A stretch of 64,000 nucleotides of DNA from Leptothermofonsia sichuanensis E412 (GTDB lineage Bacteria > Cyanobacteriota > Cyanobacteriia > Leptolyngbyales > Leptolyngbyaceae): positions 5,642,001 through 5,706,000 of the forward strand of contig NZ_CP072600.1 in NCBI RefSeq assembly GCF_019891175.1, written 5' to 3'. Made by a program: the position numbers and the translations under genes. The notes beneath the pieces were generated by a model. The model did no database searches and was not told where the DNA came from. It worked only from the letters and a program-made list of their open reading frames with translations. Shown here in pieces: positions 32,346 to 45,690 of the stretch; positions within the stretch are counted from its first letter, which is position 1; each line of letters opens with the position of its first letter.

Positions 32346-33465
32346 GCTACGACTGAGCGATCGCAGTAGCCAACTCAGCCCAGCCATTAACAGGGTTGGA
32401 ATTAACCAGACGGAAATCAGACGGTTTCTGGCAATCTGCTCTAAATCCCAATGCTGACCTGTATCATGACGAACCCGGAGAGTTTCTCCCTGAACGATCG
32501 CTCTGGGCATCAGCAGGTGCTGGGAGGGCGATAATCTGCATACTCAATTTCAAGCCCTGTCCATTCATTTAACTCGTCACACAACCACTGAATTTCCGCG
32601 CGATTCCCAGCAATATAAAAGGAGTCTGTCTCTAGAGAGGCTGTGAGGCAGCTAAAGTTCAAACGGTAATTGGGTAGGGCTTCAGGTCCTGCATGAAGGG
32701 CTTTGAGTTTTCTTGGAGCAACCTTAACAGACCCCTTTGAGCCATCTGTAGTAACATCAGTCAAAATTGAGCTGGCCTGCCGTTTCAGGCTAATTTTGTA
32801 GGTTGGAGAATGCACCTCACGTTGTTTGGAAAATAGCTGATATCCGATGGGAATTGCGATCAAAATGCACACAAACCAGACGAAAAACCCTATCCATCCT
32901 AAATAAGCGATAAATAAAAAGAAGCTAAACAAACTACTGCCGCATCCCAAACAGCCCGAAGGCGAAAGGCTGTTTTTTTGCATGTCAATTTTTTGATTAC
33001 CAAATTTATTGGTGGGTACAGATATTTCAAGTGCTGTCGGGGTTTTCCAAAGCTGGATTCTGGAGCTTGGACGCTCCATCTCCAGTGAAAACGGCTGAAC
33101 AGCAGGATAAATTAGCCTTCTCTGAAAGTTTTGCTGTAAAGGGTGAATGGCTTCATGGGCTGAAGCGGGTCTTTTAGAAGCATCAGGATGGGTCAACTAC
33201 CGAAGCCATTGAATAAAAGGGTGGCTCAGCGTCACAAATGGCTCAAACTCAATTTGCAAATTTTTTTGCGGCAGGTTGGCTGGATCTTGACCAGTTGCCA
33301 GATAAATCAGCGTTGCGCCCACACTGAACAAATCAGAGGCAGGCAGCGATCGCCCGCCAAATTGTTCTGGCGGCATGTAGCCATAGGTACCAACAACAGT
33401 CATAGTGCCCCCATGCTGGGCAGTTTGAACCGAACCAAAATCGACCAGATAAACCTGTCCAGGAC

Positions 33466-34530
33466 CTAAGTACAGGACAAAAGTTTGAGATTGTCCAAGA
33501 ACTCATCTAATTTATGGTCAAGATTAACGAGTAGGTTGTGCAAGTAATCTAAGCCATATCGGAATAGACTCTGGGCTTTGCGCCCATGGGACTTGAGTTG
33601 AATCGTTTTGTGCGCCTGCCGCCACACCCCCGTTCGCATCACCCAACATAACGCCAATGTGAGGAGCGCAAAGAGCTTGCGGACTCGGTAGTCATCAATA
33701 AAATGGGTCGCTTCGAGGCAGAAGCCCCGAGTTTTGAACGCACCGAACAGGGTTTCTAAATTCCACCGCAGGGCGTAATCTTTGAGGGCTGAATGGGGTG
33801 AATGGTTGGTGACCAAAATCAGTAATTCCTGGGTGTCAAGCCGCAGACCAACGACATACACCCAATGTCCCCACACTTGACGGCGTTTGCGTAAAATCTT
33901 GGTTTCACCCGCTTTGAGATCGGCAAAGAGGACGCGGCCATTCAGGGCTTTGCTGCCATCACTGAGCGTTTCAGTTTCGCGAATCCGCCCCCGAAACGGG
34001 ATTGGCTCATCTTCGAGCAAATAGCCAATCCACTCCCGCCCAACAAATTCGCGGTCGCTCGTCAGGCACCGCAGGCGGACATCCTCGCCAAAAATCGTGA
34101 AGAATTCGTTGAGCAAATCGATGCGCTCTTGGGTGTTGGAATTGCCGCGGTTGTCCAGCATCAGAAACACCACCGGAAAGGAAATACCCTGATGGCAAAT
34201 GCCCAGGGTGAGAATGTTGAAAACGCTACCGCCAAAGCTCCATTCGGTGCGGTCTATGGCGAGCACCCAAGGCTGCGGGATCCCCATCAGGCAGACCACG
34301 GCACGGGCAATCGCCGCATAATCGAGATCAAAGTCGCTAAAGAAGCGCTGGAGACGCTTGTAGTTCGACGGAATTTGGGCGGAACCACAAAAGCTAGCAG
34401 CCAATTCGCTCAGATTCACCGTACGGGTTCGTAGCAGGGCGATCAGAAATTGAGCCACAAATGCCAGCCGCGCACCATGCCAACCGAGGAGGGGCTGCAA
34501 AACTTGGCGAAATTCGGTAATCTGTTGCAT
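33466..34530 (-). CDS. IS4-family DDE transposase
   Basis: 354 residues. The N-terminal part is DNA-binding (LLRTRTVNLSELAASFCGS, YKRLQRFFSDFDLD). The first catalytic Asp lies in WVLAIDRTEWSFGG, the second in LTSDREFVGREWI, and the Glu in the YREK-like region ALRWNLETLFGAFKTRGFCLE, the hallmark of IS4 transposases. It appears intact. The last residues (KLLSCT) are encoded inside the left terminal repeat. The start is ATG 34530, with about 100 bp to the right end of the element. Confidence 0.93.
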   Translation of the reverse strand: MQQITEFRQVLQPLLGWHGARLAFVAQFLIALLRTRTVNLSELAASFCGSAQIPSNYKRLQRFFSDFDLDYAAIARAVVCLMGIPQPWVLAIDRTEWSFGGSVFNILTLGICHQGISFPVVFLMLDNRGNSNTQERIDLLNEFFTIFGEDVRLRCLTSDREFVGREWIGYLLEDEPIPFRGRIRETETLSDGSKALNGRVLFADLKAGETKILRKRRQVWGHWVYVVGLRLDTQELLILVTNHSPHSALKDYALRWNLETLFGAFKTRGFCLEATHFIDDYRVRKLFALLTLALCWVMRTGVWRQAHKTIQLKSHGRKAQSLFRYGLDYLHNLLVNLDHKLDEFLDNLKLLSCT

Positions 34531-34630
34531 GGGGGTCTCGTTGGTTTGTTGTTATTCCTAGGAAACCCCTTCCCGCCTAAGTTTTCAACCCTCTGTGTGC
34601 CTCAATTGACAAGTTTTGTCCTGTACTGAG
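33466..34630 (-). mobile_element. IS4-like insertion sequence, complete
   Basis: 1,165 bp. Outer ends CTAAGTACAGGACAAAA and, on the other strand, CTCAGTACAGGACAAAA are inverted repeats. It is flanked by the 9-bp direct repeat GTCCAGGAC (33457-33465 and 34631-34639). Nine-base duplications fit IS4-type elements. It carries one full-length transposase gene, whose TAG stop is formed by the terminal CTA of the left end. The intact ends, duplication and gene suggest a fairly recent insertion. Confidence 0.93.
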
Positions 34631-35230
34631 GTCCAGGACTATTACCACTGCGGTTTCTGAGCAGGATATTGCTGGGTTTGATGTCCCGATGAATGACCGA
34701 TGGTTGACGGTTGTGTAAGTATTCCAGTACTTCCAACAATTGCGTGGCGATTTCCTTCAACTCTGTTTCGCTGAAGGTGCAGCCACACTCCACCCACTCC
34801 CGCAGCGATCGCGCTTCAATGTAACTTTGCACCAGAGCAAACCCTTGGCCCAGTTCCGTCGCTACCTCAAAAGAATCGAAATAGCGAGGAATAGCTGGAT
34901 GGTCCAGGGATCGCAGCGTTTCTGCTTCTCGCTCAAACAGCTTCAAATCATCCCAGGTAAAGTCGGGACCAAACAACAGTAATTTGATCACAACTGGTGA
35001 CTCAGTTTGTAAATCTCTTGCCAGAAAGGTTCTCCGACCTGTCTGGCGACCGAGTAAAGACTCAATTTGATAGCGATCGTGCAATTTTTGTCTGATCAGT
35101 TGTTCCATTGATCCAATACCTGGGTTGGATTTTAGATTTTAGATTTTGGATTTGCGTTCGTGCTGCTTTCTATTAACGATTAACAACTAACAACAACTAA
35201 CAACTTTTCTCCCCCCTTACTCCTCACCCT

Positions 35231-36463
35231 TCACTTTCCACTCTCTACCTGTCCTACAATTCGTTTTAGATCAACCCCAGTAGCCTGATTGAACTGCTCC
35301 AGAAAAGCAGCCAGTTTAGTCGCCTGCGTCCCATTTTTAGCGTCAATTACAGTCACATCTGATACGGCAATTTTGGGAACACCCGCCGCCATCATCTGCA
35401 TTAGCACACCGATTTTTTGATAGAGAAACACCTCACGGGCATCCGTACCCGCCGATCGCCAAACTTCCCCTAAGCGCTGCAATCCAAGGGCCTGGGCTTC
35501 TCCGTTTTCAATGATTTTGGCAGCGTTGCCTTTTGCCTCAGCCATTGCTCGGTGACACTTTGCCTCAGCCGGTGCCAGCACATCGGCTTGCAATCGTTGT
35601 TCGGTTTCAACAATGCGGGCAGTTTCAACTTTGATTTCTGCTTCTACTTCAGCAATCTGGGCTGCTGCGATCGATTCAACTTCTGTGACGAGAGCCGCCC
35701 GTTTGGTCAGGGCATCTCTGACTCCTTTAGTCGCTTCGATTTTGGCAATTTCTTCATCACGCAATAGCTCACGCAGAGCCGTTTCACATTCATTCGCCGA
35801 TGCTTTGACAATTGACTCTGCTTTTGCTTGAGCCTCTGCGATGCGGGCATCCCGAATCAGTTCAGCCTGTTGTTTGCGCCCAATACTGTCCAGATAGCCC
35901 ACATCATCCGAAATAGTTTGGATTTGCAGGCTGTCCAGCATCAGACCTAACTGTTGTAAATCCTCTTCTGCCTCTTCCAGCAAACTCCGTGCAAATGCAA
36001 TTTGGTCCCCGTTCGCTTCTTCAGGCGTGAGACTCGCCAGTACTCCCCGTAGGTTTCCTTCCAGGGTTTCTTTGGCTAACTTTTCAATTTGAGCGCGGCT
36101 TTTTCCCAATAGACGCTCAATAGCATTATGGATTGTCGGCTCGGTACCAGCAATCTTAATATTGGCGACTCCTGTCACCGTCAGCGGAATCCCCCCTTTG
36201 CTGTAAGCTCCCACCACCTTAAGATCAATAATCATGTTGGTGAGATCCATACGGAAGGTCCTTTCCAGGAGGGGTATCTGAAGACTGCTTCCTCCCTTTA
36301 CCAGCCGATAACCAACCGTGTTGCCATCGGGTAAACGAGTTGAGGTGCCTGCAAAAATCAACACCTCTGAGGGTTGACAAATGTAGTAGAGATTACGAAT
36401 CACAAACCAGGCACTACCAGTTCCCAACCCTAATGCACCTAATAAGGCAATCAATACTTCCAT
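35231..36463 (-). CDS. SPFH/flotillin-like membrane protein (A)
   Basis: 410 residues. An N-terminal hydrophobic segment (EVLIALLGALGLGTGSAWFV), then NLYYICQPSEVLIFAGT, lead into an SPFH/band-7 domain (about 30-200: YRLVKGGSSLQIPLLERTFRM, AYSKGGIPLTVTGVANIKIA, KETLEGNLRGVLASLTPEEAN). A long Ala/Glu-rich coiled coil follows (about 205-345: AEAQAKAESIVKASANECE, AAQIAEVEAEIKVETARIVE) and a C-terminal assembly helix. Flotillins oligomerise on the inner membrane and organise membrane domains. ATG 36463 is preferred to the longer frame at 36493. A paralogue lies 283 bp upstream on the same strand. Confidence 0.88.
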   Translation of the reverse strand: MEVLIALLGALGLGTGSAWFVIRNLYYICQPSEVLIFAGTSTRLPDGNTVGYRLVKGGSSLQIPLLERTFRMDLTNMIIDLKVVGAYSKGGIPLTVTGVANIKIAGTEPTIHNAIERLLGKSRAQIEKLAKETLEGNLRGVLASLTPEEANGDQIAFARSLLEEAEEDLQQLGLMLDSLQIQTISDDVGYLDSIGRKQQAELIRDARIAEAQAKAESIVKASANECETALRELLRDEEIAKIEATKGVRDALTKRAALVTEVESIAAAQIAEVEAEIKVETARIVETEQRLQADVLAPAEAKCHRAMAEAKGNAAKIIENGEAQALGLQRLGEVWRSAGTDAREVFLYQKIGVLMQMMAAGVPKIAVSDVTVIDAKNGTQATKLAAFLEQFNQATGVDLKRIVGQVESGK

Positions 36464-36665
36464 AAAATTGATGCTCCTTCTATCATTTTGCAATGCTCTA
36501 TAGCAGTCCTAAATCAGTTGTGAGAGTAAGAGGCTTTGTGAGAAAGGATTCCTGGGGAATCCTTTCTCACAATCCAGATAGGATCGCTATGTCACCCCAT
36601 TACTCTCCCACTTCCCCATTCTTTTCTCCTGACTTCTGACTTCTGACTCCTGTCACTCACCCCTG

Positions 36666-36768
36666 GTGGTCCGTCAAATTACATTTGATGGGTACCTGAA
36701 TGGCGGAAAGCTGATGAGGGTTAAATTTTTGGGGCCTGTAATCCGTCAAAATTTTTCTGCTGAAACAC
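36666..36768 (-). mobile_element. degenerate MITE overlapping the SPFH(B) 3' end
   Basis: On the minus strand it reads GTGTTTCAGCAGAAAAATTT, TTGACGG, AATTTAACC, ATCAGCTTTCCG, ATTCAGGTACC and AATTTGACGGACCAC. This is colinear with the 46523-46625 copy (GTGTTCCGTCAGGAAAATTT ... AATTTGACAGACCAC). Flanking TA has decayed to TG/CA. The left part overlaps the last seven codons and stop of the SPFH gene at 36746. Confidence 0.7.
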
Positions 36769-38137
36769 CAGCCACAGGTTTGAGCGCCTTCGATACATCA
36801 ATTCCTAGCGTGTCTTCGGCGGCTTCTAAAAACTGTTTAATCACGCGCAAATAGACACTCACAACGCTGGAAACCGCATCTCCATTTCCGTTGTCGATAA
36901 TGCTGATGTGTTGAAGATCTAGTTGTTCTGGCACTTTAATCGCTTCCTGCAACACAGTTTCAAACTGTTGGATGATAAACATCGCGGCAGCATCCGCCCC
37001 CATTTCTTGCCACACTCTTGTCAGTAATTCGTTGACATAGGCTTCAGCCTGAACATTTTCGGCAAGGCTGGCAGCCTGACCCTTGGCATGGAAGATTTGG
37101 GCCTGGCGATGGAATTCGGCAGGTAATATCTCGTCAGCTTTCAGGCGCAACCGCTCCCGTTCAGTTCGCAGCGTTTGCAGGGTTTGCTCGACCACTGCCT
37201 TACGTTCTTTGGCAGCCGCCTGGGTAATTGCCATCTCAGTTCGAACCTGCTTGTCGAGTTTAGCTTTGATTTTGCGCAGATCGTTTTCTCGCTCCACGAT
37301 CGTGGTGCGATCGCGGGTCTGAGCCACTCGTCCTCGTTCCTCACACTCAGCTTCAACGTGCATCGCGGCAGCCAGGGCATCACTTTCGGCAATTTCAGCA
37401 TCCCGCAGAATCATGGCAATGCGCTGGCGACCCAGCGATTTGAGATAATCAACCCCATCGGAGACATTTTGAATCTTGAGGGTATCGAGCTGTAGCCCCA
37501 ACTTAGCCAGATCACTGCTGACATCGGAAGCAATGCGTTCGGCAAACTTAAGCCGGTCTTCATTCACCTGCTCGGGCGTCATGGTGGCAACCACACCCCG
37601 CAGATTCCCTTCCAGGGTTTCGCGAGCAACCCGCACAATTTCATCGGGTTTGTGATCCAGAAACCGTTCAATCGCATTACCCACCAGATAAGGATTACTG
37701 GAGATTTTGATGTTCGCGATCGCTTGCAGATGCAATGGAATGCCCCCTTTTGAGTAAGCATTGCGAACTTCTACTGGCACAGGCATCGTAGTTACATCCA
37801 TGCGCTTTACAGTCTCTACAATCGGAATTCGGAGGGCACGCCCACCTGTTAATATCCGAAAGCCCACCTCTTGACCTTCCTTATTTCGCCACTTGCGCCC
37901 TGACAGAATAACCACTTCATTGGGATTGGCAATGACTAAAAACGATCGCAAAAACCAGACTCCCAGCACAGTAGCCATCAATCCCAGGGCGAGCAGACTA
38001 CCTCCATTGATCCATTCATTGCCAACCCGCAAATAATCAGTTGGATGCTCCGGCGATGGCGAGATCATTTCAACGGGCGATGCCTGGGCATAAACCTGAG
38101 ATTGGGAAGTTAGATTTGAGTACCCGTTAGCTTGCAT
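36746..38137 (-). CDS. SPFH/flotillin-like membrane protein (B)
   Basis: 463 residues. A TM segment (about 47-68, GSLLALGLMATVLGVWFLRS) is followed by NPNEVVILSGRKWRN and an SPFH domain (VGFRILTGGRALRIPIVETV, AYSKGGIPLHLQAIANIKIS, RETLEGNLRGVVATMTPEQVN). A coiled coil follows with an Arg/Glu/Lys-rich section (REDLRK-like, LRTERERLRLKADEI) and a hydrophobic C-terminal oligomer region (EMGADAAAMFIIQQFETVLQ). It is clearly paralogous to protein A, so hetero-oligomers are likely. The final GVSAEKF and stop fall inside a MITE copy, so the original C-terminus was probably different. A half MITE copy lies just upstream of the start. Confidence 0.88.
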   Translation of the reverse strand: MQANGYSNLTSQSQVYAQASPVEMISPSPEHPTDYLRVGNEWINGGSLLALGLMATVLGVWFLRSFLVIANPNEVVILSGRKWRNKEGQEVGFRILTGGRALRIPIVETVKRMDVTTMPVPVEVRNAYSKGGIPLHLQAIANIKISSNPYLVGNAIERFLDHKPDEIVRVARETLEGNLRGVVATMTPEQVNEDRLKFAERIASDVSSDLAKLGLQLDTLKIQNVSDGVDYLKSLGRQRIAMILRDAEIAESDALAAAMHVEAECEERGRVAQTRDRTTIVERENDLRKIKAKLDKQVRTEMAITQAAAKERKAVVEQTLQTLRTERERLRLKADEILPAEFHRQAQIFHAKGQAASLAENVQAEAYVNELLTRVWQEMGADAAAMFIIQQFETVLQEAIKVPEQLDLQHISIIDNGNGDAVSSVVSVYLRVIKQFLEAAEDTLGIDVSKALKPVAGVSAEKF

Positions 38138-38160
38138 AAGTGGATTCCTTTATATGGCTG

Positions 38161-38178
38161 GTGTTCCGTCAGGAAAAG
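38161..38178 (+). mobile_element. MITE end fragment
   Basis: GTGTTCCGTCAGGAAAA matches the outer end of the 46523 MITE. The rest of the element is not recognisable. It lies between the NfeD-like gene and SPFH(B), within 25 bp of the SPFH(B) start. Confidence 0.45.
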
Positions 38179-38197
38179 GGATTGCTACACAATTGAC

Positions 38198-38539
38198 TCA
38201 GATTGATCCATGCAGAATATCTGCTGGAATAACGTAAACAAAACTGTTTTTGATCTGTATAATCAACACCTGATCACCCGGTTGAAAAGAGTGAGGATAA
38301 TCAGTCAGCGCAATAAACTCTCTGGTGGAATGATCGATATGGACTCTGATTTTGCCCTTTGAACGGTGGTCAAAGGGAATGTAAACTGTGCCGATGCGTC
38401 CAATCAAAGAATGGTTATGGGACAGGCTATTTGCCAGGATCTTTCGGCGAATGGTAAATATCAGAAAAACAATCACTCCACCGCAGAACACGCCAACTAA
38501 CACTGAGGCAAGGGCAATCCGGAGTAGTGTGCTATTCAT
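38198..38539 (-). CDS. NfeD-like membrane-anchored OB-fold protein
   Basis: 113 residues from ATG 38539. One TM segment (IALASVLVGVFCGGVIVFLI) is followed by a short cytoplasmic beta-barrel: HSLIGRIGTVYIPFDHRSKG, KIRVHIDHSTREFIALTDYP and FQPGDQVLIIQIKNSFVYVI. The Gly-Thr-Val, the GKIRV strand and the GDQVLI turn match the C-terminal OB domain of NfeD proteins, usual operon partners of SPFH proteins. Its ATG overlaps the TGA of the upstream gene (ATGA), so translation is probably coupled. Confidence 0.72.
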   Translation of the reverse strand: MNSTLLRIALASVLVGVFCGGVIVFLIFTIRRKILANSLSHNHSLIGRIGTVYIPFDHRSKGKIRVHIDHSTREFIALTDYPHSFQPGDQVLIIQIKNSFVYVIPADILHGSI

Positions 38540-39294
38540 AAGCCTGGGGATTCTTTTTTGATGCGTTTTTTCCCCAAATTGCCCCCGAAACAATAGGTGC
38601 CAATGTCGCTTCCAGGTTTTTCCAGGGAAAACTCAAATTTGGCAGATCTGGAAGAAGATGCTTCGGTCATTTCATACATCTCTTCTGAACCAAACATTTC
38701 GGTTTCGCCATACCATGCAGTTCCTGCGGCATATCTCAATTTAAAAGTCCCAAATGGAACCACCATCTCAACCATCTCACCTGCCTGAATCAATGCAGTG
38801 GTGATTACCTGGTTTGATTTCCAGTCAAGCAATTGCACGTAATAATGGTTCCTGGCGGCAGTCACCCCTGGATTCTTCCCACTGGAACAGGTTTGCGGTA
38901 GAGCAGACTTTTCTTCTGGAAAGGGTGTCCTCAGAAAAAATCGGAGTCGTCCTGAGTATTCATTGGTTGCAGGTATGTATGGTTTTAACACGCCTGTCTG
39001 GGGCAAAGCCAGGGGTGTACGTTGTGGTTTGGGGCTGACTGGTTTGGGGCTGACTGGTTTGGGGCTGACTGGTTTGGGACTGGCTGGCTGGGGACTGGCT
39101 GGCTGGGGACTGGCAATTTTACTGGAGGGGGGATCGACGGGGATTGAATTGCATTGATGCATTAGCCCGATAAACGCGATCGCCCCTCCTACCAGCAACC
39201 AGAGCGTTTTATTGTTCCGCCCTGCATCCTTGCTGTTCGTCTGCGATCGCCGACGAACTTCCTCCTGAAAGCGAGTCTCAAGTTTTTTAGACAT
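38536..39294 (-). CDS. membrane-anchored protein with SPKPV repeats
   Basis: 252 residues. A basic cytoplasmic start (KKLETRFQEEVRRRSQTNS) is followed by a TM segment (TLWLLVGGAIAFIGLMHQ). Then comes a Pro linker made of repeated SPQPA/SPKPV pentapeptides, encoded by a 15-bp tandem repeat near 39030-39115. The folded C-terminal domain (about 115-250) contains GRLRFFLRTPFPEE, YYVQLLDWKSNQVITTALIQ, VPFGTFKLRYAAGTAWYGE and CFGG. It looks like a periplasmic or inter-membrane reader domain held away from the membrane. No family recognised. First gene of the coupled NfeD/SPFH set. Confidence 0.7.
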   Translation of the reverse strand: MSKKLETRFQEEVRRRSQTNSKDAGRNNKTLWLLVGGAIAFIGLMHQCNSIPVDPPSSKIASPQPASPQPASPKPVSPKPVSPKPVSPKPQRTPLALPQTGVLKPYIPATNEYSGRLRFFLRTPFPEEKSALPQTCSSGKNPGVTAARNHYYVQLLDWKSNQVITTALIQAGEMVEMVVPFGTFKLRYAAGTAWYGETEMFGSEEMYEMTEASSSRSAKFEFSLEKPGSDIGTYCFGGNLGKKRIKKESPGL

Positions 39295-39430
39295 AGATTA
39301 AAAGGGGGCGTTAGTGGTTTATTGAAATATTCAAACTGATCTTCGTAACTTCTCCAGATTGAAAGCAGAACCATAATTCAATTTGGTTTTAGATGAATGT
39401 CACTGAATTAAGTCAGATACGCTTGCTCAG

Positions 39431-39459
39431 ATCTCCAACTTCTTCAAGAAGTTGGAGAT
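39431..39459. terminator. 14-bp perfect hairpin after the sigma-like gene
   Basis: ATCTCCAACTTCTT and AAGAAGTTGGAGAT flank a single base, three bases beyond the stop codon of the sigma-like gene. No long T-run follows on the minus strand, so it may be an RNA stabiliser or partial terminator separating the sigma-like gene from the SPFH cluster. Confidence 0.55.
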
Positions 39460-39461
39460 AT

Positions 39462-40124
39462 TTAACCTCTTATGTCAGTGCCATTCGGTTTTAGATAACC
39501 ATGCAACTCTCGAAACTGAATTAGAAAGGGGAGGCATTTACGATGATAGAAGCTGCTGAGTGTAGAAATTTGAACTGCAAACTCCTCAGACAACTGTTTC
39601 CATGTTTTTTGGAGAAGTATGCGGCAAGAAATCAAGACGTAGCCATTAATATCTGGGCGATCGCGGAGACAGATCAGTTGTAAAACATCCTTCTCTCCTT
39701 CAAGCCATGCTGAAACTTCTTCAAGAATAGGAGGAGGTTCTGGTCTGGCAGGCAGATGCTCAATCCATTTGTCTGCCAGTTCAGATTCAGAATCGGGAAG
39801 CACAATCTGCAACTTGGCTTCCCTGGCTTTCTGGTGGGCAATATCCTGAATTCTGTATTGCAGATATTGATTAATCCAGGTCAGCACCTCGGCCTGGTCA
39901 GGATTGTAAGTTTCGATCCGGCAGCATAGATAGAACCATGTTTGTTGCAGGGCATCATTGTAATCATCGGTTGAAATCCGAGGCTCTTTCCAGAGTCTGT
40001 TTGATGTTTGAATCCTTGCAATCAGATGATTCATGCGTTTCCGGCGCTCCAGGCTGTCTTTGGGATAAAGACAGGCGTCTGCAACCAGCCATCGTAGTTC
40101 CTGATGTAAGTTTCTGATATTCAT
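39462..40124 (-). CDS. sigma-70-like protein
   Basis: 220 residues. Region 2-like helices lie around 50-105: ISTDDYNDALQQTWFYLCCR, then YNPDQAEVLTWINQYLQYRI and IAHQKAREAKLQ. This is the layout of cyanobacterial sigma-70-family proteins related to ECF factors. A final HTH resembling region 4 (LLQKTWKQLSEEFAVQISTL SSFYHRKC in two pieces) lies near residue 175. It could direct RNA polymerase to a small regulon, but no cognate promoter is visible. ATG 40124 was preferred to 40142. It sits upstream of the SPFH/NfeD cluster and downstream of the secreted protease, all on the minus strand. Confidence 0.65.
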   Translation of the reverse strand: MNIRNLHQELRWLVADACLYPKDSLERRKRMNHLIARIQTSNRLWKEPRISTDDYNDALQQTWFYLCCRIETYNPDQAEVLTWINQYLQYRIQDIAHQKAREAKLQIVLPDSESELADKWIEHLPARPEPPPILEEVSAWLEGEKDVLQLICLRDRPDINGYVLISCRILLQKTWKQLSEEFAVQISTLSSFYHRKCLPFLIQFRELHGYLKPNGTDIRG

Positions 40125-40183
40125 TCGATTGACTGGATCCATAATCTTGCCAGGTAGGTGCTAACAGGGATTGAGCAGAGATA

Positions 40184-40274: not shown

Positions 40275-41309
40275 TTAGCGATCGCGCTTCTGCACTTTTC
40301 GACGCCTAAGCATCCAGCCGCCAAAGATTGCCATGCCAAGAATGGTTGAGGGTTCAGGGATAGCAGCCGTATTTTGAGCAGAAGCCGCAATATTGCCAAG
40401 CAGCACACCATCTACAAAGCTGGCATAGGTTGAAACTCGCGTTTCTCCTGAAAGCTCACCAAATGTAGAATTGGTTAGCTCATCAATATCTGTTGCCAGT
40501 AGCAGACCAAACCCTCCGACCCCATAGGAAGTGATTCCAGCGATCCGGTTATCAATGAAGGCTGGTCCCCCAGAATCGCCAGAGGCAGTATTCACCTCGT
40601 TAATTCCGAGTCCTAAACTGCCAAGCAAATTGTTGGATCGAAAACCACTGTCAAAATCAAAAAGCAACTGGCTAAATGGTGCTGGATTCGTCGGAGGCGA
40701 AATCAGTAGATTGACGAGATCAGCTTCTGTTCCCTCAAATTGGTTTTGCCCAAAGTAAGCAACCAGCCCATTCGTCGTTGTCTCTCCGTCTATACCGTTG
40801 CCAGTCCTGCCATAACCAACCTTTGTGAAGATTTGACCTAACTCATTGGTCTCTCGATAAATGTCGTACTGCTCTGCTTCACTCGGGGCTGGCTCTAGCA
40901 GCGACAAAATAGCAATGTCATTGCCATTTGTCAGCGTTCCATCCCATCCCTGGAAAATAAACAAATCGAGAATGGGCACCTGTGTCACACCACTGGCAAG
41001 ATTGAACGTGGCGAAAAAGGGTTGATTGATCAGTCCAGGGGATATCTGGTTAGTATCTTCTGTCAAACAATGGGCAGCCGTGAGAATGTGCAGTCCCCCC
41101 TTCAACAGAGAGCCGGTACAAAATGGAATGGATGTCCCATCTGAGAAAACATCTCCTTCTAAAGAGACAACCCCACTGAACTGACCAGGAAGGGCTTGCT
41201 GGCGGAATAGCGATGCATCATCCACCACCACGATCGCCTCTGCCTGCCTGCTCCCTGACGTTATTACTGCGGTACCAGCCAGAATACCCAGCCATCTGTG
41301 CATGTTCAT
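40275..41309 (-). CDS. secreted trypsin-like serine protease with PEP-CTERM anchor
   Basis: 344 residues. Signal peptide (LGILAGTAVITSGSRQAEA). Trypsin-fold catalytic triad: His in ILTAAHCLTED, Asp in TNGNDIAILSLLEP, Ser in TASGDSGGPAFIDN. The first Cys pair (FCTGSLL with AAHC) is conserved. The C-terminus is IPEPSTILGMAIFGGWMLRRRK, a PEP-CTERM sorting signal (PEP motif, TM helix, Arg cluster), so the enzyme is expected to be handled by an exosortase and linked to the cell surface. Substrate unknown. It has its own spacer upstream (41310-41875). Confidence 0.9.
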   Translation of the reverse strand: MNMHRWLGILAGTAVITSGSRQAEAIVVVDDASLFRQQALPGQFSGVVSLEGDVFSDGTSIPFCTGSLLKGGLHILTAAHCLTEDTNQISPGLINQPFFATFNLASGVTQVPILDLFIFQGWDGTLTNGNDIAILSLLEPAPSEAEQYDIYRETNELGQIFTKVGYGRTGNGIDGETTTNGLVAYFGQNQFEGTEADLVNLLISPPTNPAPFSQLLFDFDSGFRSNNLLGSLGLGINEVNTASGDSGGPAFIDNRIAGITSYGVGGFGLLLATDIDELTNSTFGELSGETRVSTYASFVDGVLLGNIAASAQNTAAIPEPSTILGMAIFGGWMLRRRKVQKRDR

Positions 41310-41875
41310 TGTGAAATCCTTTAGTAGATGAAATTTCCCCTTCCCTGGGTATATACGTCGGGAGATTCCCAGTTATGCAACCAGCAGGGATAATCATTCG
41401 ACCGACTAAACCCTATGTAAATCCTATTTATAGCCTTTGAGAATGTCAAGTAAAAAGTAGAGTGATTGAGATGCGCAAAGGGGGATGAAGGGGTAAACGT
41501 CTCTATGAAATGAGGATTTTATAGCAATTCCTCTATGCCCTCTGTGTCTCTGTGTCTCTGTGGTAGAAAAGTTAAGGTTTCGGCTTGTTTAATCCACAAT
41601 CCTGACAATCCATGCTCTGTGTTCTGGGTTCACTTGTTTTCCAGCAAATCCTATATAAGTTCTGCAATAATTCTATATAAAGTCTGTAAAAGCTCCCTGG
41701 GACTGCCTATCTCATGCCAATGCCAGTAGAATAAAATGCCAGTAGAATAAAAGGACGATACCTGTTCAGCGGTTTCCAGGTAAGCAAACGTCTGGAGGTC
41801 GCGTTTCAGGCTGTTCTGCTTGAAGTGGGTAGCTAGAAAAGTTGTGACAACGGTTGTTTAGAAAAACCTTCGTTC
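41310..41875. other. 566-bp divergent spacer
   Basis: Separates the protease gene from the STAND ATPase gene, so it should carry promoters for both. It contains a family A repeat half (41525-41567) followed by TTTAATCCACAATCC, which also follows the 23839 copy. It has short repeats near 41645-41745 (CTATATAAGTTCTGCAATAA and CTATATAAAGTCTGTAAAA; ATGCCAGTAGAATAAAA twice). No coding frame is supported. Confidence 0.55.
41525..41567. repeat. palindromic repeat, family A (half copy)
   Basis: TGCCCTCTGTGTCTCTGTGT then CTCTGTGGTAGAAAAG: only the right arm of the hairpin, with the CTCTGTGT word duplicated. Confidence 0.6.
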
Positions 41876-43258
41876 ATGGCAAAGCCATCGCTCAAAGCAA
41901 CCCCAAAGGGGGTCCAGTTAGTAAAACAGGCGCTGATCCGGGCAGGCTGGACTCAGAAGGACTTACAAGCTGCAATTGGTTGCAGTCGTCAGCCGATTAC
42001 TAATTTTTTTAAGGGGGAGGCGATCGCTCAACCTCTGTTCATGCGTTTATGCGATCGCCTGGGCTTGAACTGGCAGGCAATCGTTGGTCTGCTGGACTGC
42101 CCTGAGGAGCCTGGAGCAGCCAGTCTTCCTGAGCTACTTCCCGAACCTTTCCAACCAACCCATGCTGAGCTGGAGAAGGAAAACCCCCTGCTCCAGGGAC
42201 AAAAACGAACGCCAGTGGAGTCACAGATCGATTTGCAAGAAGTGCCCAACCTTCCAGTTTTCTATGGGCGAGTCAAAGAACTGACTGAACTCAAGCAAAG
42301 GATTTTAGAGGATGCCTGTCAACTGGTGGTGTTGCTGGGAATGCGGGGAATTGGTAAGACGACCCTGGCTGTCAGACTGCTGGAGGAAATCAAATATGAA
42401 TTTGATTATGTGATCTGGCGATCGCTGGCTCATACCCCACCCCCCCTGATGAGCGACCTGCTGGCAGACCTGATTCAGGTTTTATCCAATCAGCACAGCC
42501 GTCCCCTGCCTGCAACCAGCGATGGGCGAATCTCGTGCCTGATTGAGCATTTACGCCAGCACCGTTGCCTGTTGGTTCTGGATAATGCCGAGTCCCTGAT
42601 GCAAGATCAGGCTCTGGCGGGACACTATCGTCCAGGCTATGAGGACTATGAAGCGCTATTTCGGCGGTTGGGAACAGGACGCCATCAGAGTTGCCTGATC
42701 CTGACCAGTCGAGCCAATCTAAAGGAAATCGCTGAACTGGAGGCAAGAGATTTTCCAGTCTATCCCCTGCACCTGGCTGGACTGCCAGAGAGCTATGCCT
42801 GCAAATTGCTGGCTGCCAAAGGTTTGTCGGATCAGGAGCACTGGGGCACACTGATTGAAATTTTCCAGGGGAATCCGCTGGCATTGCAAATTGTTTCTGC
42901 CATGATTCAGCGATCGTTTGGGGGCAGAGTATCCCATTTCCTGAAGCAAAAAACCATCACTACCCGGCAAATTGTTGATCTGCTGGAGCAACAGTTTCAT
43001 AGCCTCTCTGCCTTAGAAAAAGAACTCATGTACTGTCTAGCAATTCAGCCCCAACCCATGTCTTTTGCTGATTTGAAAGAGCAGATTGAGGTATCTGGGG
43101 CAGTTCTTCTCGATGCGGTAGAGTCCCTGCTGCGGCGATCGCTGATTCGGGGAGAAGCCAGGTTTACGCTGGAACCAGTGGTTCGTCAGTATGTTATCAA
43201 TGAGTTGGAACAACAGAAATTGTCGCTTCCTAATGGCTTTACTCCCTATCCCGGATGA
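41876..43258 (+). CDS. HTH-NB-ARC STAND ATPase without repeat sensor
   Basis: 460 residues. The N-terminus (about 8-72) is an HTH-like module: VKQALIRAGWTQKDLQAAIG, CSRQPITNFFKGEAIAQPLF. It precedes an NB-ARC ATPase: VVLLGMRGIGKTTLAVRLLE (P-loop near 155), CLLVLDNAESLM (Walker B), SCLILTSRANLKEI (sensor 1/RNBS-B), LAGLPESYACKLLAAKGL and GNPLALQIVSAMI (GLPL). A winged-helix (SALEKELMYCLAIQPQPMS) ends the protein. STAND proteins usually carry WD40, TPR or LRR sensors; none follows here. Its last four bases overlap the next start (ATGA), so it is translated together with a kinase-receptor gene that may supply sensing. Confidence 0.88.
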   Translation: MAKPSLKATPKGVQLVKQALIRAGWTQKDLQAAIGCSRQPITNFFKGEAIAQPLFMRLCDRLGLNWQAIVGLLDCPEEPGAASLPELLPEPFQPTHAELEKENPLLQGQKRTPVESQIDLQEVPNLPVFYGRVKELTELKQRILEDACQLVVLLGMRGIGKTTLAVRLLEEIKYEFDYVIWRSLAHTPPPLMSDLLADLIQVLSNQHSRPLPATSDGRISCLIEHLRQHRCLLVLDNAESLMQDQALAGHYRPGYEDYEALFRRLGTGRHQSCLILTSRANLKEIAELEARDFPVYPLHLAGLPESYACKLLAAKGLSDQEHWGTLIEIFQGNPLALQIVSAMIQRSFGGRVSHFLKQKTITTRQIVDLLEQQFHSLSALEKELMYCLAIQPQPMSFADLKEQIEVSGAVLLDAVESLLRRSLIRGEARFTLEPVVRQYVINELEQQKLSLPNGFTPYPG

Positions 43259-45690
43259 GTTATTGCATCAACCCAGATTGTCCACATCCCCAAAATCCTG
43301 ACCACTTAGAGCACTGTCAGGCATGTGGCTCCAGCCTGGTTTATGATGAATTTCTTTATCGCGCAATCAAACCTCTGGAAACTCAGCATCGAACAGTCCA
43401 TCAGGAAACCCATGATACTCAACTCTATGAAGTCATAGACGAAGAAGGGAATAGGGCTGTTTTGAAGGTCTTAACCAACCACAGTGCCAGAGTGGTTACC
43501 TTATTTGAGCAAGAAACAAAAATCCTGCGCCAACTGACGCATTTGGGCATTCCCAGGTTTGAGCGCACCTTTACGTTTACAACCTCCAGGGGTAGCAGGC
43601 TGCGCTGTCTTGTCATGGAAAAAATTGAGGGACAAACCTTAGACCAGTGGTTAGAGAAACAGATGCCTCTATCGGAGGAAACAGCCCTGAAATGGCTCAA
43701 GCAACTGGTTGAGATTTTATATGTTGTGCATCAAAAAGGTTTTTTACATCAGGATATCAAACCATCTAACATCATGCAGAGAGTGGATGGTCAACTGGTT
43801 TTGCTTGACTTTGGCAATGCTTCTGATACTGTTTCCGCAGGCTATACCCCACCAGAGCAGGCGGATGGAAAAGCGACGCCCCAGTCAGATTTCTTTGCCT
43901 TAGGGCGAACCTTTGTGCATTTGTTGACTGGCCATCATCCGATTGATTTGCCAAAACATCCACAAACCGGAAGACTGCTCTGGCATCCCTATGCGCCGCA
44001 GATTTCCCAGGCTTTAGCCGATCTGGTGGACGACCTGATGGCACTTTTGCCGCCCGCCCGCCCCCAAACCGTGCAGGCTATTCTGGCACGGATTAACGCC
44101 ATCGCTGAGGAAACAGTTCCAGCCATCCCTGTCAGTTCTGCCCCCAAAAAGACGCCACAACAATTACCGTCAGCCACTACATCGCCCCGCAGACGGCTGG
44201 GTATGATGATTCTATATTCGGGATTGGTGCTGGCGCTGGGCTATGCTGGTGTGCGATCGCTTCAACCAGTTCTCCAGACAGTTCTATTTCCCAGTCACCA
44301 AATGGCTTGTGATCAGGTCCTGGAAGACGCCCTGAGTTGTGGAGAAGAAAGCCTGTTCCCGTTCATTCCAATTCCCGAAAAACAACAGGGTATCGATAAA
44401 TTTAAGGCGGGTGACTACCAGGGGGCGGTTGCCTGGCTGGAAGACGCCAGAAAGCAACAGCAGGATGATCCAGAAACGCTGATTTACCTGAATAATGCCC
44501 GGTTAGCAACTCAACCAACTCAACCCTATACGATCGCGATCGTCGCTCCAATCAAAAACAGCCCCGAACTCAGTACGGAAATTCTGCGCGGGGTGGCTCA
44601 GGCACAGACTGAAATCAATCGCCAGGGCATTCACGGCAGAGGATTGCGGGTCATCATTGCGGATGATGCCAACGACCCCACCAGGGCGCAACAGGTAGCA
44701 GAAGCCCTGGTCAAACGTAGAGAAATTTTAGGGGTGGTCGGGCACTATACCAGCGAGATGTCACTGCGAACCCTAGACATTTATCAAGCTCATCAGCTCG
44801 TTTTAATTTCCTATGGCAGCACCTCCACCGATCTCTCGCCCTATGGCTTAAAACCAGGTCATGTTTTCTTCCGCACTGTGCCAACGACTCAGATCACGGC
44901 CTTAGCACTGACCAGTTATCTGATGAGTCAATCTCCACAACCCCAGAACGTTATGGTCTTCTACAATCCGCAAAGCCCCTATAGTCGATCGCTGCGGGAT
45001 CAATTTGATGTCAGTATCCGTGCAACGGGGGGAAGGATTGGGAAATCGATTGATCTGTGTCAGGTTGCCTTCAATGCAGGGGACATTTTAGAAAAAGCGC
45101 GTCAGCAAGGAACAACCGCGATCGCCCTGTTCCCGGATGGACGATTTTGTGCTGCCTCCTACCCGAATGTTTTAACGACCATCCGGGCGAACAATCGACG
45201 GCATCCAATGGTTGCTTCCTGGGTTCTGAGTCGAGCCGATACGCTGGAAAGCGTGGGAGAACATATCGTTGGGAAATTGGTGTTTGCTACCCCATGGCAT
45301 CGATTAAGTAGCACCAATTCCAACTTCTTGAAGGAAGCTGAGGTGCAGTGGGGCCAGGCAACCTTGCACGGAGAGGGAATCAATACAGGCACAGCAACGA
45401 CCTACGATGCCACCAGAGCGCTGATCCATGCCTTAGCCCACCCATCCCAACCCAATAGTCGAGCTGGCGTGCAGCAGGTTTTAGCATCTCCCGACTTTGA
45501 AGCGCAGGGAGCAACTGGACCCATCCGGTTTTTAGGGGGCGATCGCCAGGAACCTATTCAAGTCCTGTTGAAAGTTGTACCCTCTCAGGGCTGCAACCAC
45601 TACCAGTATTCCTTTGTCCCAGTTGACTACCCCCTGGCAAAAGAGGAAATTTTGAATTGCCACACCCACTCCGGCGGGAGCGTGGATTAA
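43255..45690 (+). CDS. zinc-ribbon, protein kinase, TM, periplasmic-binding fusion
   Basis: 811 residues. Residues 1-25 are a CxxxxC...CxxC ribbon (YCINPDCPHPQN, CQACGSS). Residues 35-285 are a Ser/Thr kinase: no Gly-rich loop is evident, the Lys is in AVLKVL, HRD is replaced by HQD in FLHQDIKPSNIM, DFG is in LLDFGNAS, and GYTPPEQADGK marks the activation segment end. A TM helix (about 317-335) places the rest outside. A short TPR-like hairpin (FKAGDYQGAVAWLEDARKQQ) precedes a Peripla_BP_6 ligand-binding domain (424-800: YTIAIVAPIKNSPELSTEIL, VVGHYTSEMSL, LISYGSTSTDLS). It is thus built like a one-piece receptor kinase that may sense an amino-acid-like ligand. It overlaps the STAND gene by four bases. 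Confidence 0.9.
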   Translation: MSYCINPDCPHPQNPDHLEHCQACGSSLVYDEFLYRAIKPLETQHRTVHQETHDTQLYEVIDEEGNRAVLKVLTNHSARVVTLFEQETKILRQLTHLGIPRFERTFTFTTSRGSRLRCLVMEKIEGQTLDQWLEKQMPLSEETALKWLKQLVEILYVVHQKGFLHQDIKPSNIMQRVDGQLVLLDFGNASDTVSAGYTPPEQADGKATPQSDFFALGRTFVHLLTGHHPIDLPKHPQTGRLLWHPYAPQISQALADLVDDLMALLPPARPQTVQAILARINAIAEETVPAIPVSSAPKKTPQQLPSATTSPRRRLGMMILYSGLVLALGYAGVRSLQPVLQTVLFPSHQMACDQVLEDALSCGEESLFPFIPIPEKQQGIDKFKAGDYQGAVAWLEDARKQQQDDPETLIYLNNARLATQPTQPYTIAIVAPIKNSPELSTEILRGVAQAQTEINRQGIHGRGLRVIIADDANDPTRAQQVAEALVKRREILGVVGHYTSEMSLRTLDIYQAHQLVLISYGSTSTDLSPYGLKPGHVFFRTVPTTQITALALTSYLMSQSPQPQNVMVFYNPQSPYSRSLRDQFDVSIRATGGRIGKSIDLCQVAFNAGDILEKARQQGTTAIALFPDGRFCAASYPNVLTTIRANNRRHPMVASWVLSRADTLESVGEHIVGKLVFATPWHRLSSTNSNFLKEAEVQWGQATLHGEGINTGTATTYDATRALIHALAHPSQPNSRAGVQQVLASPDFEAQGATGPIRFLGGDRQEPIQVLLKVVPSQGCNHYQYSFVPVDYPLAKEEILNCHTHSGGSVD

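Follow-up and report, generated by a model that had tools for sequence, protein, structure and literature searches.

What does a flotillin operon do in the company of genes for a sigma-like protein, a peptidase, a STAND ATPase and protein kinases? This question is raised by a locus of the cyanobacterium Leptothermofonsia sichuanensis E412, whose genome consists of one contig of 6.43 Mb and of which a stretch of 64,000 nucleotides (NZ_CP072600.1, positions 5,642,001-5,706,000; hereafter the window) was analysed. Open reading frames (ORFs) and sequence place on the minus strand, from 40142 down to 35231, genes for a sigma-like protein, a membrane-anchored "reader", an NfeD-like protein and two SPFH proteins, SPFH_A and SPFH_B, which bears out the gene row drawn in an earlier sequence-only reading of this DNA. 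That reading had overlooked conserved locus parts lying upstream at 40275-45690, namely a trypsin-like protease gene, an HTH-NB-ARC (STAND) gene and a gene fusing a kinase to a Peripla_BP_6 receptor domain, whose order is kept at a homologous locus, L203, of a related genome. The interpretation favoured here, with a probability of roughly 55%, is that the SPFH genes form an accessory flotillin operon with a short NfeD, set in a modular, exchangeable signalling locus of STAND, sigma, peptidase and kinase genes.

The relationships of the operon were obtained from a scan of one genome per species, in which the best 80 of 165 related SPFH loci were taken and sorted by the authors into 30 with a short and 50 with a long NfeD (L115 and L133 were classed as short-NfeD by their relatives). 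In a FastTree tree of 85 rows, midpoint-rooted for drawing only, from which loci without both SPFH ORFs (17 names) were omitted and in which L168, L178 and L180 duplicate the contigs L049, L052 and L053 with identical rows, an unrooted split with a support of 100 separates 51 rows from 34 that include the window. The latter comprise 28 rows around the window copy (support 97) and six from Pleurocapsales, while the 51-row side holds the second copy of the E412 genome, grouped with a genome of the same genus. NfeD, found by tblastn in 68 of the 80 loci with some loci yielding none, measures about 106-128 residues in the 34 rows where called (one ORF has 145) and usually about 200 or more in the 51. 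Of the 58 genomes searched, 19 have SPFH pairs, E412 among them, and every pair consists of one A-type and one B-type gene; the two genes lie far apart in G049 and on two contigs in G030, and only E412 has two pairs. The flotillin set of the window, whose nearest rows in the tree are L102 (83% identity) and L103, is a second, accessory copy and was probably acquired. As a separate observation, Okeania, Trichodesmium and Hydrocoleum have two tandem NfeD genes before the SPFH pair, one long and the other short wherever gene calls are shown (L124, L127, L135, L138, L140, L143, L144, L146, L150, L166 and L170).

The two groups differ in their neighbours. Sigma-like genes stand beside 11 of the 30 short-NfeD loci and DUF1822 genes beside 10, versus none of the 50 long-NfeD loci, at which the same queries gave no match for the sigma-like protein, DUF1822, the L118-type CHAT protein or Peripla_BP_6. 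Kinases of the window family adjoin two of the 80 loci, both short-NfeD (L103, intact, 704 residues; L107, an apparently truncated ORF of 212 residues), and NB-ARC matches were found at the short-NfeD loci L107, L123 and L131. Pfam assignment of 70 proteins encoded on the same strand within 2.5 kb of the 30 short-NfeD loci, excluding ORFs below 120 residues, returned CHAT 9 times, DUF1822 10 times and Peripla_BP_6 8 times. None of these three is among the 25 commonest of 116 families, a ranking in which single members could hide, for 90 proteins counted likewise at 40 long-NfeD loci, ten near-duplicates by organism name having been dropped from the 50. A sigma-like, CHAT or window-type kinase gene is present at 14 of the 30 short-NfeD loci, or a partner at 18 if weaker cases are added (a contig-edge fragment at L108, an opposite-strand NB-ARC gene at L131 and vWA genes at L110 and L112), and five changes or more are required to account for the sigma linkage on the tree. 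By rough arithmetic, the 67 sigma-like places in the 58 genomes would put one within 3 kb of about 0.2% of SPFH clusters; this low expectation speaks against chance as the source of the sigma-SPFH linkage, not against shared islands. Two further neighbours of short-NfeD pairs were recorded: a TPR-CHAT gene upstream of NfeD in Desmonostoc (L121, 1722-5534), and a TerF-like vWA gene downstream of the pair in Xenococcaceae (L110, 3604-4224; assigned by homology to L110 at L112, 5267-5887).

Three distinct arrangements combine sigma genes with SPFH genes, those of the window, of Nostocales and of Acaryochloris. Ten Nostocales loci share, with close co-directional spacing, the order SPFH_B, sigma-like and DUF1822, followed in the eight where the contig reaches by a CHAT-Peripla_BP_6 fusion; seven have a second Peripla_BP_6 match. 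The eleventh sigma-linked locus, L120 from Acaryochloris, has, 0.3 kb downstream and in the same orientation, a sigma-like gene that is more distantly related (28% in the alignment). On the Acaryochloris plasmid pMB01, an HTH-NACHT gene diverges from NfeD-SPFH-SPFH, which is followed by an ORF of 143 residues, a sigma-70 family gene (25% to the window sigma-like protein) and a trypsin-TPR protease gene, whose product shares Pfam families only, and no BLAST similarity, with the window trypsin; a DUF1822 remnant there (best E 0.004) is unproven. A Cylindrospermum plasmid (L107) joins an SPFH pair to the kinase ORF, a kinase-receptor gene and NB-ARC. Locus L203, in genome G026, which has the nearest relative of the window NB-ARC protein (64%), matches the window in order, with the kinase-receptor and NB-ARC genes on one strand and the trypsin-like (45%), NfeD (54%), kinase and second, probably frameshifted, kinase genes on the other; neither an SPFH pair nor a sigma-like or reader match was found in it. 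The start of an SPFH_A-like ORF is suggested there by ATGCAAGCT, through the match at the start and its position (blastn E 0.036), weak evidence that the SPFH pair was probably deleted. Homologues of the window kinase-receptor protein stand beside NB-ARC in L203, L192 and L107. Elsewhere, a sigma-like gene diverges from NB-ARC and kinase-receptor ORFs that are in fragments, no SPFH being present (G010), and the orders sigma, DUF1822, NB-ARC, kinase (G044), sigma-DUF1822-kinase (G001, of the same genus) and sigma-DUF1822-CHAT-receptor with a window-type kinase about 3 kb further (G004 and G032) are found. Loci as varied as L203, L107, pMB01 and the others thus point to a limited set of modules that is reshuffled around the short-NfeD pair. 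The claim that a sigma-like gene and a kinase enlarge the NfeD-SPFH pair into a bigger unit survives as a recurring linkage and fails as one fixed order; when gene order was compared among relatives, that of the core was conserved and the added genes varied.

Several observations weigh against the favoured interpretation. Twelve of the 30 short-NfeD loci, some on short contigs, lack a recognised partner; 10 of the 11 sigma-linked loci are from Nostocales and largely represent one lineage; and the nearest relatives, L102 and L103, are without sigma-like, STAND and reader genes. L103 is an NfeD-SPFH-SPFH-kinase row amid genes of other function, and no kinase lies within the 1.25 kb of contig downstream of L102. 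The long-NfeD locus L137 also has a nearby NB-ARC gene, and because STAND genes occur in 47 and the kinase families in 50 of the 58 genomes, some adjacency is due to chance. In L121 a divergent CHAT gene went undetected by the tblastn CHAT query, which may have overlooked others elsewhere. Finally, G+C is lower across 34.6-42 kb (0.474 versus 0.515 in the flanks, standard deviation 0.022, the lowest flanking 1.2-kb window being 0.453), and two copies lie on plasmids.

These last two points also favour an alternative in which the short-NfeD operon, the sigma-like gene, the STAND and kinase-receptor genes and the kinase, each mobile or accessory in its own right, gather in variable regions and plasmids and do not cooperate. 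An insertion sequence (IS) and a dispersed repeat lie between the genes, every module is also found without the others, and the arrangements differ among loci, all of which fit such islands. Islands of this kind would explain less readily why the same few families recur while sigma-like, DUF1822 and Peripla_BP_6 matches number zero at the 50 long-NfeD loci, or the close co-directional spacing in Nostocales, the block synteny of the window with L203 and a chance adjacency of sigma-like genes as low as that estimated above, and this alternative is considered possible but doubtful.

As to the core itself, SPFH_A (36746-38137, minus strand, 463 residues) and SPFH_B (35231-36463, minus strand, 410 residues from its ATG) both pass the Pfam Band_7 cut-off (E = 9.2e-23 and, scored from a TTG start, 4.2e-23). 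Comparison with L102 and L103 favours the ATG at 36463 over the TTG at 36493 as the start of SPFH_B. Among SPFH models, NCBIfam reports FloT alone for either protein, at 144-145 bits (144 for SPFH_A), without reaching the 700-bit cut-off of the equivalog NF058507; the best Protein Data Bank (PDB) matches of both are flotillins (human flotillin-1, E = 3.4e-33, for SPFH_A; flotillin-1, 3.1e-33, for SPFH_B), as are all matches with E <1e-10. On these sequence comparisons, both proteins resemble flotillins more closely than they do other SPFH groups. A 17-bp perfect hairpin (36536-36572) lies between the two genes. The NfeD protein (38198-38539, minus strand, 113 residues) falls below the Pfam NfeD cut-off (E = 0.023); it aligns with 17 operon NfeD proteins, including that of the second E412 copy, and with 19 short forms, and its profile has YuaF (2k14) as best, weak PDB match (E = 0.033). 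By sequence, the core is of the known cyanobacterial NfeD2-SPFH2-SPFH2 (p-flotillin) operon kind.

The pairing of NfeD with SPFH, which the sequence-only reading had called known, is indeed published in its cyanobacterial form with two SPFH2 genes, as described in the available part of PMC2636767. The p-flotillin operon Syc1604_d/1607_d/1608_d presented there has, like the window, an NfeD gene and two paralogous flotillin-like genes; the window differs in its status as an accessory second copy and its signalling neighbours, and may differ in its short NfeD with one transmembrane segment. YuaF-FloT (YuaG) of B. subtilis and YqiJ-YqiK of E. coli, treated in the same portion of that paper, and NfeD-FloA of S. 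aureus, for which the accessible part of PMC11222466 reports experimental binding of NfeD to the flotillin FloA via an OB-like domain, likewise join an NfeD partner to a flotillin, whereas the window has two SPFH genes and scores below the FloT cut-off. The locus could accordingly be a plain second flotillin operon whose only role is to organise membrane domains or to stabilise proteins of the membrane, as reported for FloA-NfeD, with irrelevant neighbours; the flotillin-type SPFH sequences and the partnerless 12 of 30 short-NfeD loci suit this explanation, which is rendered improbable by the distinctness of the short-NfeD group in both tree and neighbours.

The identity of the sigma-like protein (39462-40142, minus strand, 226 residues) rests on its predicted fold, for which sigma factors of the extracytoplasmic function (ECF) type were matched first. 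The sequence models fall short of their cut-offs, with Pfam Sigma70_r2 at E = 0.12 (12.7 bits versus 24) and NCBIfam TIGR02937 at E = 0.0035 (17 bits versus 42.9). The first 41 Foldseek matches of the predicted structure are all sigma factors, the best with E = 3.4e-3 and none at or below 0.001, and the model (pLDDT 78, pTM 0.47) aligns with region 2 of sigmaE (4lup) with a TM-score of 0.78 by target. A profile search of the PDB with the sigma-like family contradicts this result, returning no sigma factor among its 12 matches up to E 1. Away from SPFH genes, in 20 stretches taken from top-ranked matches (two from the E412 genome and one each from 18 relatives), the family is accompanied by DUF1822 in 18 and by CHAT in 16. 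The window locus, unlike those of Nostocales, has no DUF1822 or CHAT match by tblastn or Pfam, and because of this absence it is not assigned to an ECF sigma-DUF1822-CHAT/caspase system. PADLOC gave no match for the sigma-like, reader, NfeD and SPFH proteins.

Between the sigma-like gene and the reader lie 167 nt that contain a perfect palindrome (39431-39459, core CTCCAACTTCTTGAAGAAGTTGGAG) present at about 75 genomic places; a search allowing up to two mismatches returned 74 forward and 78 reverse matches, each place counting on both strands, and none for a reversed control. Since this gap with its repeated palindrome separates the two genes, a single transcript cannot be assumed.

The reader (38536-39294, minus strand) has one transmembrane segment, an SPKPV-type linker and an outer domain that is rare and unnamed. 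The ATG of NfeD at 38539 overlaps the TGA of the reader gene (ATGA), as the earlier reading had noticed, and this arrangement suggests coupled translation. No reader match was found by tblastn in any of the 80 SPFH loci. Matches with E ≤0.01 occur in 20 of the 58 genomes; all but those in E412 itself and in G017 are weak or short, and many fall in the linker. The one convincing homologue among the 58 relatives (L100, 5520-6155; 37% over 67 residues), that of G017, is not beside SPFH genes, in a genome without an SPFH pair; used as a query against 292 genomes sampled from the phylum, G017 evidently not among them, it matched only in E412. The reader as a conserved part of the locus was therefore rejected, contrary to its earlier inclusion in the unit, and it looks from these comparisons like a local addition. 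For this protein Pfam gave nothing better than E 0.12, NCBIfam and the PDB gave no match, and the single-sequence structure model is poor (pLDDT 52.5). The G017 homologue also matches 17 plasmid records, mostly of Sphingobium and other proteobacteria and two of them annotated as J-domain proteins, and one phage record, all distant relatives; nothing was confirmed in viral contigs.

Upstream of the sigma-like gene, the trypsin-like protease (40275-41309, minus strand; Pfam Trypsin 9.3e-14) has a PEP-CTERM-like end (0.002). On the divergent side, the HTH-NB-ARC protein (41876-43258, plus strand, 460 residues; Pfam NB-ARC 2.8e-12, HTH_3 2.4e-5) is followed by the kinase-Peripla_BP_6 fusion (43255-45690, plus strand, 811 residues; Pfam Pkinase 4.4e-26, Peripla_BP_6 2.4e-28), the two genes overlapping within 41876-45690. 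The fusion protein matches PD-T4-6 of PADLOC over residues 1-311 with E = 2.8e-91, in a search in which many PD-T4-6 models matched kinases broadly.

In the favoured interpretation, the flotillin operon is surrounded by modules for a trypsin-like protease, a membrane-anchored Hanks kinase, an ECF-sigma-like regulator and an HTH-STAND ATPase paired with a ligand-binding receptor that is linked to a kinase. By analogy with flotillin-1/2, SPFH_A and SPFH_B may form a mixed ring or dome at the membrane, which NfeD would steady and which would act as a platform that recruits or gates the membrane kinase together with the receptor and STAND proteins. A ligand or membrane stress would then act on the sigma-like factor, by way of phosphorylation or proteolysis, and so alter transcription. 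Gene content, tree position, the broken kinase and the recurrence of the linkage in varied arrangements are established by the sequences; physical interaction, signal and output are inferences, and so is the envelope sensing proposed earlier for the locus.

The Ser/Thr kinase that had been read as ending the row is not intact. Its 5' part (34602-35108, minus strand; Pkinase 1e-21), the last codons of which lie inside the end of the element, is interrupted before the DFG motif by an IS of 1165 bp (33466-34630, minus strand; transposase ORF 33466-34530), whose inverted ends agree at 20 of 26 positions and which is flanked on both sides by a 9-bp target duplication, GTCCTGGAC (34631-34639 and 33457-33465). 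The distal part (32510-33456, minus strand) carries a second lesion, a stop codon at 33197-33199, followed by a transmembrane region and a C-terminal domain; the catalytic domain is thus not uninterrupted. Of 28 matches to the element in the genome, 22, the window copy included, span at least 1109 of 1131 bases with a rounded identity of 100%, so the insertion is probably recent. The element also appears to be active. A kinase homologue of the same genus (G001, L207) has an open frame of 468 residues with 80% identity to the N-terminal part of the window kinase, whose C-terminal piece is 48% identical to L207 and 36% to L203; a kinase fragment in L206 (82%) has no SPFH or NfeD neighbour on its 3.7-kb contig.

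With this kinase broken, the E412 locus cannot fully work as proposed; either another kinase serves in its place or the unit is decaying. That the whole locus is being lost in E412 and has no present function would agree with the two kinase lesions, with the probable deletion of the SPFH pair from the homologous G026 locus and with the missing DUF1822 beside the sigma-like gene, but the ORFs for NfeD, both SPFH proteins, the sigma-like protein, the trypsin, the NB-ARC protein and the kinase-receptor are open and have conserved relatives, which makes complete decay quite improbable.

Compared with described conflict systems, the locus shows partial likenesses. The portion of PMC8195603 that is available predicts conflict systems composed of an ECF sigma factor, DUF1822 and a caspase-like EACC2 protein; a possible likeness lies in the DUF1822 and CHAT genes found near the window's sigma-like family elsewhere, and the difference in the lack of any DUF1822 or CHAT match at the window locus. 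A search of the text of that paper gave no match for SPFH, Band-7 or flotillin. Band-7 domains in conflict systems (PMC7159879) and in phage shock protein (PSP) systems (PMC11237479) are, in the available parts of both papers, likewise linked to signalling or stress; there they are linked to PspA or form fusions with cyclase or HAD domains, whereas the window combines them with sigma, STAND and kinase genes. Among the titles and abstract openings listed by searches of the open-licence literature, none suggests such a link of flotillin or SPFH genes to sigma, STAND, CHAT or DUF1822 genes, and the recurring company of flotillin genes with signalling genes looks new.

Taken together, the core of this locus is already known, and it is the recurring link of a flotillin group with sigma, STAND, peptidase and kinase genes that is worth following. 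More tentatively still than the modular locus itself, and on balance unlikely, the flotillin scaffold may be a regular, exchangeable part of a cyanobacterial conflict or cell-fate signalling system, in which the short-NfeD SPFH pair would be the platform that assembles the receptor-kinase, STAND ATPase, protease (CHAT or trypsin) and ECF-sigma-like modules; if true, bacteria would possess a counterpart of raft-organised immune signalling. The recurring sigma-like, STAND, receptor-kinase and peptidase neighbours provide named candidate partners for this group of bacterial flotillins, and such a partnership would connect membrane microdomains of cyanobacteria with responses in transcription or conflict.

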